NCBI GenBank assembly: GCA_005882445.1
Contig: VBAN01000135.1
Span: 1,818-10,202, forward strand
Length of the DNA stretch: 8,385 bases
Reading direction: 5' to 3'
From: Candidatus Segetimicrobium genomatis
GTDB taxonomy: Bacteria; Sysuimicrobiota; Sysuimicrobiia; Sysuimicrobiales; Segetimicrobiaceae
Shown here: positions 2,607 to 5,634 of the stretch, in pieces
How the letters are laid out: the number at the start of each line of letters is the position of its first letter
Numbering within the stretch: the first letter of the stretch is position 1
Made by a program: the position numbers and the translations under genes
Notes under the pieces: generated by a model
Told to the model about the DNA's origin: nothing
Seen by the model: only the letters and a program-made list of their open reading frames with translations
Databases searched by the model: none

Positions 2607-5600
2607 ATGTTCCTGACCCGCGGAGCCACCCGCAACCCTGTCTTCGTCCTGATGGTCAGCATCGCCGTCGTGGTGCTGAGCCAGATCGCCCTGTCCCGGC
2701 TGCCGACGGACCTGTTCCCAAGGATCACCATCCCCGTGATCACGGTGAACACGAACTACCAGCGCGCAAGCCCGGAGGCGGTCGAGCGCACCGTCACCTA
2801 CCCGATCGAGCAGGCCGTCACCCGGGTGGCCGGGGTGCAGCAGATCCTCTCGAGCACGCGGCAGGGAAACAGCGACATCATCCAGGGCGTCCAGCGGGTC
2901 ATGCGGAACCTTCCTACCGGAGTCAGCCAGCCCTTCATCTCTAAGTTCGATATCTCCAACATCCCGGTCGTGCAGGTGGTGGTGGGAGGCGGAGGGCTCG
3001 ACGCGCGCCAGTTGTACGATCTCGCCTACAACACCATCGAGCCGCAGCTCGAGCGCCTGCCGGGGGTCTCCCAGGCCTTCGTCAACGGCGGGCTGGTGCG
3101 GCAGTTCAACGTCAGCGTGGATCCCAACAAACTGGTGGCGGCGGGCCTGACGCTGCCGGACGTCCAGAACGCCATCGTCAAGTACAACGCGCTCATCCCG
3201 TCCGGCAGCCTCCGCAACACCCGCATCGACTACCAGCTGAACGTGCCCTCGCTCCTGCAGAGCGTCCCGGCGATCCAGGACGTCGTCATCACGACGCACG
3301 GCGGCGTGCCGGTGCACATCCGGGACGTCGCGCAGGTGGCGGACGCCGCCGCCGACCAGACCCAGATCGTCCACGTCGACGGCCGGCCGGGCGTGCTCAT
3401 GTTCGTCGCGCGCCAGCCCGACGCCAACACCATCGAGACGGTCAACCAGATCCGCGCCGCGCTCCCGCGTCTGACCGGGGTGCCGCCCGGCGTGGCGCTG
3501 TCGCTGGGCTTCGATCAGTCCCGGTACATCCGGTCCGCCATCCAGACCCTCGGGCGCGAGGCGATCGTCGGCGCGGCCCTGACGTTCGTCGTCGTCCTGG
3601 TGTTCCTGCGGAGCCTCTGGAGCCTGGTCATCGTCGGGCTCGGGATCCCGCTGTCCGTGTCGAGCGCCCTGCTGCTGCTCTACTTCACCGGCCAGACCCT
3701 CAACGTCTTCACCCTCGGCGGGCTCACGCTGGCGATGGGGCGTCTGGTGGACGACGCCATCGTGGTGCGGGAGAACATCACACGCCATCTCATGGTTCCC
3801 GGCCGCTCCGTGCTCGAGGCGGTGGTGACGGCCACGCAGGAGGTGGGGCTCCCGGTCCTGGCCTCCACCGCGTCGACGATCGCGGTATTTTTCCCGGTGG
3901 TCTTCCTCAGCGGGATCGCCCAGCGGCTGTTTGTGCCCATGGCGCTGACCATCATCTTCGCCCTCGGCGCCTCTTACGTGGTGTCGATGACGATCGACCC
4001 GGTGCTGAGCACCAAGCTGCTGCGCGCGGGCGTGCCGAAGACAGAGGGCGGCGGCATCGTGGCGCGGTTCAACCGCTGGAGCGAGGGGCTGATGGAAGGC
4101 CTCGACCTCGGCTATCAGCGCGCGCTCGGGTGGACGCTCCGGCACCGCGCGGCGGTCCTGGCGGGGACCGGGGTGGTCTTTGTGATCTCCGTGGCCGCCG
4201 CGCGGGGCATCGGGACGGAGTTTTTCCCGGCGACCGATGAGAGCCAGTTCCAGATCAACCTCGAGGCCCCACAGGGGACCGCGGTGCAGGTGACCTCCGT
4301 GATCGCCGAGCAGGTGGTCGGGATCGTCCGCCAGGTCGCCCCCCCGCGCGACATCGTGACCATCTACACGAACGCCGGAATCCCATCGGCGGGCGGTGGG
4401 TTCGGCGGGAACGCGGGGACGAACGCCGCGAACGTCCAGGTCCGGCTGGTGCCGCCGACGCAGCGCCGCGAGTCCCAGGACGATCTTGCCAACAGCATCC
4501 GCCGGGCGCTTGCGGGCAAGTTCCCCGGGATCCAGCTGTTCGTCCGGACCGGCGGGCTCCAGAACCGGGTCGTCAACTTCGGCTCGGCGGCGCCGATCGA
4601 TATCCAGCTCCTGGGGTTCGACCAGCAGGTCGGCGCGCAGTTTGCCCGGGAGGTCGCGGGGATCGTCTCGGCGACCCCCGGCACCGCCGATGTGCAGATC
4701 ACCCCGCGCGGTCAGTACCCCGCCTTCACCGTGACTCTGAACAGCGAGAAGGCGGCCCAGCTCGGCCTGGCCACGACCACGGTCGCCAACGCCATCGACA
4801 TGGCGATGGCGGGGAACGTCGGGACCGCCAGCCAGCTCATCGACCCGGTCACGGGGAACGAATACAATATCGTCGTCCGGCTGATGGACCAGTACCGGAG
4901 CCACCCCGAAGACCTGGCCAACGTGCCGCTGGCCGTCCTCGCCGACCCGGGACCGGGGTCGGCGCCGACAACCGGGCCGCTGGTGCCGGTCCGTGTCCGG
5001 GACGTCGCCCGGATCGCGCTCGGCAGCCAGCCCCTCCAGATTAGCCGCAAGAACGAGCAGCGGGTGATCGATGTCACCGCGAACGTCATCGACCGCCCGC
5101 TCGGGGCGGTCTCGCAGGAAATCGCCGGCCGGCTGAACCAGCTGCCGTTTCCCCCGGGGTTCACCTACCACATGGCCGGGCAGACCGAGCAGCAGCAGAG
5201 CGCCTTCGGCAGCCTCGGGTTCGCGCTGGGCCTGGCCCTCATGCTTGTCTACATGATCATGGCGTCGCAGTTCCAGTCGCTCGTGGACCCGTTTGTGATC
5301 ATGTTCACCGTGCCGTTGGGGATCATCGGCGTGATTTGGATGCTGCTGCTCACCCACACGACGCTGTCGATCATTTCTTTCATGGGGGTGATCACGATGG
5401 TGGGGGTCGTGGTCTCGAACGGCATCCTGCTCGTCGACTACTCGAACAAGCAGCATCATCGCCATGATCCCGATGGCCGTCGGCTTCGGCGAGGGCGCCG
5501 CGACGAACATGCCGCTCGCCCGCGCCGTGATCGGCGGGCTGACCGTCTCGACGGGTCTGACCCTGCTGTTGATCCCGACCCTCTACGTCTTCTTCGAGGA

Positions 5601-5624
5601 GCGGTTCCCGCGTCGATCCCATAA
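2607..5624 (+). CDS. RND efflux transporter permease (AcrB/HAE1-like), C-terminus lost to deletion and frameshift
   Basis: The frame from ATG 2607 codes for 1005 residues, but only residues 1-948 are genuine RND sequence. TM1 is at about 11-30, followed by the porter motif (TDLFPRITIPVITVNTNY, then SPEAVERTVTYPIEQAVTRVAGVQQILSST). A membrane block comes next with the proton-relay Asp pair D382-D383 in LVDDAIVV. The second half repeats the fold, starting near TLRHRAAVLAGTGVVFV and ending in GVITMVGVVVSNGILLVDYSNK. The lysine that completes the AcrB proton relay (K940) is serine here (S937), as I recall from other RND subgroups. After K948 the sequence becomes an Arg/Asp/His-rich frameshift product to TAA 5624. 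The real C-terminus lies in the next frame (5452-5634). About 30 residues are missing between the two, including the conserved RLRPILMT region. A repaired protein would be about 1040 residues, normal for the family. As written, the pump is probably non-functional. Confidence 0.85.
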   Translation: MFLTRGATRNPVFVLMVSIAVVVLSQIALSRLPTDLFPRITIPVITVNTNYQRASPEAVERTVTYPIEQAVTRVAGVQQILSSTRQGNSDIIQGVQRVMRNLPTGVSQPFISKFDISNIPVVQVVVGGGGLDARQLYDLAYNTIEPQLERLPGVSQAFVNGGLVRQFNVSVDPNKLVAAGLTLPDVQNAIVKYNALIPSGSLRNTRIDYQLNVPSLLQSVPAIQDVVITTHGGVPVHIRDVAQVADAAADQTQIVHVDGRPGVLMFVARQPDANTIETVNQIRAALPRLTGVPPGVALSLGFDQSRYIRSAIQTLGREAIVGAALTFVVVLVFLRSLWSLVIVGLGIPLSVSSALLLLYFTGQTLNVFTLGGLTLAMGRLVDDAIVVRENITRHLMVPGRSVLEAVVTATQEVGLPVLASTASTIAVFFPVVFLSGIAQRLFVPMALTIIFALGASYVVSMTIDPVLSTKLLRAGVPKTEGGGIVARFNRWSEGLMEGLDLGYQRALGWTLRHRAAVLAGTGVVFVISVAAARGIGTEFFPATDESQFQINLEAPQGTAVQVTSVIAEQVVGIVRQVAPPRDIVTIYTNAGIPSAGGGFGGNAGTNAANVQVRLVPPTQRRESQDDLANSIRRALAGKFPGIQLFVRTGGLQNRVVNFGSAAPIDIQLLGFDQQVGAQFAREVAGIVSATPGTADVQITPRGQYPAFTVTLNSEKAAQLGLATTTVANAIDMAMAGNVGTASQLIDPVTGNEYNIVVRLMDQYRSHPEDLANVPLAVLADPGPGSAPTTGPLVPVRVRDVARIALGSQPLQISRKNEQRVIDVTANVIDRPLGAVSQEIAGRLNQLPFPPGFTYHMAGQTEQQQSAFGSLGFALGLALMLVYMIMASQFQSLVDPFVIMFTVPLGIIGVIWMLLLTHTTLSIISFMGVITMVGVVVSNGILLVDYSNKQHHRHDPDGRRLRRGRRDEHAARPRRDRRADRLDGSDPAVDPDPLRLLRGAVPASIP

Positions 5625-5634
5625 GGCGTCATGA
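5452..5634 (+). pseudogene. Detached C-terminal end of the RND pump, in the shifted frame
   Basis: The frame starting at AGC 5452 reads SIIAMIPMAVGFGEGA, then MPLARAVIGGLTVSTGLTLL, then LIPTLYVFFEERFPRRSHKAS before TGA 5632-5634. This is the canonical last membrane helix and cytoplasmic tail of an RND permease (compare ILGVMPLVISTGAG in AcrB). It is offset by one base from the main pump frame and has no start signal of its own, so it is the original end of that gene. Its stop overlaps the following ATG as ATGA, which supports this frame as the ancestral one. Confidence 0.85.

Follow-up and report, generated by a model that had tools for sequence, protein, structure and literature searches.

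The window analyzed here, the whole stretch of 8,385 nucleotides at C95:1818-10202 of the draft genome G000 (contig VBAN01000135.1), carries an RND permease gene whose reading frame is lost near its 3' end, and this raised the question of whether the pump gene was damaged in the organism or in the assembly. The G000 draft comprises 2,498,628 bases in 500 contigs, with an estimated completeness of 64%. On its plus strand the window encodes a MerR-type regulator, an RND adaptor, an RND permease, an ABC ATPase and an MFS transporter; tRNAs and Rfam RNAs were looked for in the window and none was found. The open frame at window positions 7738-8385, which runs past the window end, had no NCBIfam match. 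The features to which the analysis refers are the following (window coordinates).

1284 to 2597, plus strand: RND periplasmic adaptor gene (TIGR01730 RND_mfp, above the cut-off); no large gap against G001
2607 to 5624, plus strand: RND permease open frame, from the ORF list
2607 to 5450, plus strand: RND permease main frame up to the second junction, 948 codons, including the in-frame junction at 2876-2880 (ORF; Pfam ACR_tran, residues 9-951)
2876 to 2880, plus strand: junction 1, where 51 bases (17 codons) are absent compared with relatives and the frame is kept (alignments to G001, G003 and G002)
5451 to 5454, plus strand: junction 2, where 86 bases are absent compared with relatives and the frame is lost (alignments to G001, G003 and G002)
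5451 to 5624, plus strand: continuation of the main open frame after the loss of frame, with TAA at 5622-5624 and no family match
5452 to 5634, plus strand: true 3' end of the RND permease gene, read in the other frame, with TGA at 5632-5634 (ACR_tran profile 974-1020; dN/dS 0.167 against G001, 59 codons)
5631 to 6440, plus strand: ABC ATPase gene (Pfam ABC_tran); no gap against G001

Two Stretches Are Missing from the Pump Gene

The ACR_tran profile (cut-off 28) matched the main frame with 660 bits (residues 9-951, profile positions 7-945 of 1021) and, separately, the tail frame from 5452 with 40 bits (profile 974-1020). The open reading frames and these two matches agree with the coordinates of the earlier note, according to which RND sequence runs to the lysine codon at 5448-5450 and resumes from 5452 in another frame. 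The overlap that it described between the stop of that frame (TGA at 5632-5634) and the ATPase start (ATG at 5631) was likewise observed.

The window was compared with G001, the nearest relative among the genomes searched and a member of the same genus as G000. Over 5,755 aligned bases (93.6% identity) the window showed three internal gaps: one of 3 bases following 1277, one of 51 bases near 2876 and one of 86 bases around 5454. The 51- and 86-base gaps were also seen in comparisons with G003 and G002, alongside further gaps of G003 and G002 themselves. The loss at junction 2 had been put at about 30 residues and at a length that is not a multiple of three; the 86 bases measured against all three genomes show that this estimate was right. 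The second, in-frame loss of 51 bases was missing from the earlier note. The neighboring adaptor, ATPase and MFS genes contained no gaps of more than 40 bases against G001. The orthologous permease gene of G001 (contig VBAK01000118.1, 'Terrabacteria group bacterium ANGP1' isolate NP_3) lies at the same place in a collinear stretch with 92-94% DNA identity, but its frame, measured between stops, stays open for 1057 codons and contains both stretches. NCBI taxonomy files the name under Candidatus Segetimicrobium genomatis (phylum Candidatus Sysuimicrobiota).

We then extended the comparison to proteins, taking the best 120 of 6,131 relatives found. Both missing stretches were kept in all 104 relatives of full length (at least 1000 amino acids) among these 120, so that a short form shared by homologues, which the earlier note had named as evidence against a lesion, was absent from them. 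The 16 shorter proteins, which may include fragments, were excluded from this count, and in 12 of them at least one of the two stretches was mostly missing. The stretch lost at junction 2 aligns with MexB residues 952-980, approximately, and the C-terminal membrane part with its RLRP-containing helix is accordingly incomplete in the window gene. The motif RLRPILMT (969-976) does fall within the lost stretch, as had been proposed; its position just before the last helix could not be maintained, since the region corresponds to what we take, from the general RND topology, to be the loop before TM11 and the first part of TM11, the second-last helix. Microhomology between the flanks amounts to 3 bases at the first junction and a single base at the second. 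We also considered whether G000 has another copy of the gene end elsewhere, but a DNA search with the 501 bases around the junction matched only the window's own place.

The Pump and Its Neighbors Are under Ordinary Constraint

The dN/dS values of the pump against G001 were 0.166 for positions 2607-2876 (89 codons), 0.178 for 2880-5450 (857 codons) and 0.167 for 5452-5631 (59 codons), bearing in mind that the two outer pieces are short and that dN/dS is blind to a very recent loss. None of the three pieces contained a stop. The neighboring genes gave values of 0.259 (MerR), 0.198 (adaptor), 0.170 (ATPase) and 0.163 (MFS). The pump pieces are thus under ordinary purifying selection, and constraint on the piece after the frameshift matches that on the others. 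Relaxed selection or further lesions, which would mark a pseudogene, were absent from the pump.

These values bear on the explanation that comes second, a real and recent pseudogene, in which two deletions in the lineage would have left a non-functional product without the last two membrane helices. Two losses in a single gene, next to an adaptor, an ATPase and an MFS gene that are free of losses above 40 bases, speak for this explanation, and dN/dS would stay unchanged after a very recent loss. Against it, the pump pieces show neither an excess of amino acid changes nor stops, and the short form occurs in none of the 104 full-length relatives among the best 120 of 6,131. A pseudogene would also be expected to stand in a genome that is otherwise free of such losses, whereas the same class of loss was found at 15 further sites compared in the draft and in rpoB, as described below. 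We consider a pseudogene improbable.

Large Gaps Are One-sided in the Draft

The gap count was extended to 67 of the 500 G000 contigs, which were compared with 65 stretches of G001 and yielded 16 alignments covering 68,307 bases (92.2% identity). Among the 55 contigs first drawn from G000, 21 consisted wholly of N and were left out of the comparison. In the class of 40-120 bases, G000 had 17 gaps and G001 had 0; this count excludes one more gap, which lay opposite a stretch of N. The 17 gaps are 40-109 bases long and lie on 6 of the compared G000 contigs, 2 of them in the pump gene and 15 elsewhere. In the smaller classes the counts for G000 and G001 were 7 and 2 (20-39 bases), 26 and 34 (3-19 bases) and 56 and 48 (1-2 bases), so that small gaps of 1-19 bases were balanced, with 82 in each genome.

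Control comparisons between other pairs of the genus gave 1 gap of 40-120 bases in 26,245 aligned bases for G003 against G001, and 0 for G002 against G001 (3,166 bases), G002 against G003 (3,164 bases) and G004 against G001 (4,896 bases). Because the control pairs are more diverged, the near absence of large gaps from them is telling, but they cover fewer bases. In the comparison of G000 with one G003 contig (11,168 bases), 2 large gaps were in G000 and 1 in G003. Since these two drafts, G001 and G000, differ at the species level, real differences may account for some of the 17 gaps, chiefly the approximately 7 whose place in coding sequence is not clear. At another locus (L080, on contig C5 of G000), positions 1569-3043 comprise about 1.5 kb that have no counterpart in G001, in which the two flanks adjoin; this extra stretch of G000 is possibly a mobile insertion.

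The form of the joins was also analyzed. Microhomology at the 17 gaps averaged 0.82 bases, compared with 0.76 expected by chance, which represents no excess, and the lengths of 3 of the 17 gaps were divisible by three, which reveals no frame preference. Deletion between short repeats was rejected as a cause on the basis of this nearly random microhomology. Hairpins and GC content were rejected as well, as they left no general signature and just 1 of the 17 missing segments was clearly more structured than random ones. Direct joining of contig ends would suit this signature better than deletions between short repeats or selected deletions, the latter because selection would favor the loss of whole codons.

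Genes Affected Elsewhere in the Draft

To see which genes are hit, we applied a mechanical rule that counts as a gene every open frame of 150 codons or more in which differences are in excess at third positions; the resulting set may include gene edges and false frames. Losses of at least 40 bases affected 9 of the 36 frames defined in G001 when read in G000, the pump included, and 0 of the 32 frames defined in G000 when read in G001. When every stop or frameshift is counted, whatever its size, similar proportions of frames are broken, namely 11 of the 36 and 10 of the 32, so the asymmetry is confined to the large class. Under a looser frame rule, which chose a different frame from the stricter one at one gap, frames showing an excess at third positions contained 10 of the 17 gaps, and the other 7 lay outside such frames. 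Six affected frames were searched for NCBIfam names: one is an aconitate hydratase (848.5 bits, cut-off 612), which lacks 61 bases in G000; another, listed under the looser rule and not under the stricter one, is an Nramp-family transporter (64.8 bits, cut-off 50); and the remaining likenesses, to threonine ammonia-lyase, MgtE, 2-dehydro-3-deoxygluconokinase and a YghX-family hydrolase, stayed below the cut-off.

Four indispensable genes of G000 were then inspected (rpoB, rpoC, valS and gyrA), and faults were found in the first two. The rpoB gene, on contig C195, lacks 108 bases, in frame, which correspond to 36 residues (profile positions 802-837) that are kept in G001 and G002. In rpoC, an open frame of 1,056 residues is followed by an internal TAA where G001 encodes glutamate. 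The other two genes were clean, valS covering profile positions 3-861 of 863 and gyrA 3-797 of 800, both without stops. A single rpoB locus, on one contig, was found; at a completeness of 64% the draft may have missed another, but a second rpoB is rare in bacteria. A living cell should not tolerate such a loss in rpoB, and a polymerase gene without the 36-residue block is not expected to support life. At the gyrA locus of G000 (L229, near 1129), 35 bases upstream of gyrA are missing compared with G001.

The rpoB loss also bears on a second rival explanation, genome erosion, in which the lineage would truly bear deletions of 40-109 bases throughout its genome, one of them in RNA polymerase, and its gene set would be collapsing. 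The gaps are indeed one-sided and spread over 6 compared contigs. Nevertheless, a gene in which such a loss is intolerable is among those affected, small gaps are balanced, frame preference is lacking, and constraint on the pump and its neighbors is ordinary; erosion is therefore even less probable than a pseudogene. A third rival is that the pump works in its present form, either because programmed ribosomal frameshifting bridges the junction or because the gene is naturally short. Both parts are still open and conserved, but this explanation is hardly credible, since a frameshift cannot restore the 28-29 lost residues that include RLRPILMT, and this form is absent from all 104 full-length relatives among the best 120 of 6,131.

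Origin of the Apparent Lesion

The apparent lesion of the pump gene is very probably an assembly artefact, a reading that we draw from comparing genomes. An assembly error is favored because comparable short pieces are absent from several other genes of this draft, rpoB included: one-sided losses of the same kind occur at unrelated loci of G000 compared with G001, and genes needed by a living cell are affected. The earlier note had left the choice between a pseudogene and an assembly loss of about 90 bases; the latter agrees with the 17 large gaps against 0 and with the faults in aconitase and rpoB, and the former gained no positive support. Some observations weigh against an artefact: the loss in rpoB keeps the frame, valS and gyrA are whole, frames broken by lesions of any size are about as common in either direction, the comparison with G003 put one large gap in G003 as well, and part of the 17 gaps may be real. 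The assembler or scaffolder probably joined neighboring contig ends across short unassembled stretches, and such joins, made without overlap and without N, would look like small deletions. In the organism, the pump gene would be uninterrupted and end in an ATGA overlap with the ATPase gene.

Local assembly errors and scaffolding gaps of metagenome-assembled genomes are treated in PMC7111523, which describes incomplete or incorrect protein-coding genes as passing into public databases if the errors go uncurated. The present case resembles those set out there in that protein-coding genes are incomplete in a draft genome. It differs in that the errors discussed in that account were recognized from read support, whereas here they are recognized from comparison with relatives alone. 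In the sequence compared, G000 lacks a piece of 40-109 bases approximately once per 4 kb (17 in 68,307 bases), and truncated proteins or pseudogene calls taken from this draft are therefore untrustworthy without reads. Counting whether gaps against a close relative fall on one side, and inspecting a few indispensable genes, offers a cheap test for apparent lesions in any draft.

Family and Relatives of the Pump

As biology, the pump gene appears ordinary. By its match to the Pfam ACR_tran profile, the window permease is a predicted member of the RND family. The NCBIfam models for RND subfamilies and equivalogs all stayed below their cut-offs, both for the window frame and for the full-length relative P0001, which scored 438.7 of 940.35 with HAE-1 (TIGR00915), 475.2 of 701.45 with CusA/CzcA (TIGR00914) and 669.5 of 1250 with NF033617; the window frame scored lower than P0001 with these three models. 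P0001 aligns nearly end to end with MdtB (10-1044) and MexB (10-1048), both of solved structure, but, in contrast to permeases of the MexB/AcrB/MdtB type, neither it nor the window frame reaches any of these subfamily cut-offs. Residue 53 of the pump (window positions 2763-2765) is an arginine, in the context TNYQRASP. The partial protein P0105 likewise has arginine at this position, but glycine stands there in P0001 and in the other full-length relatives that were inspected by eye.
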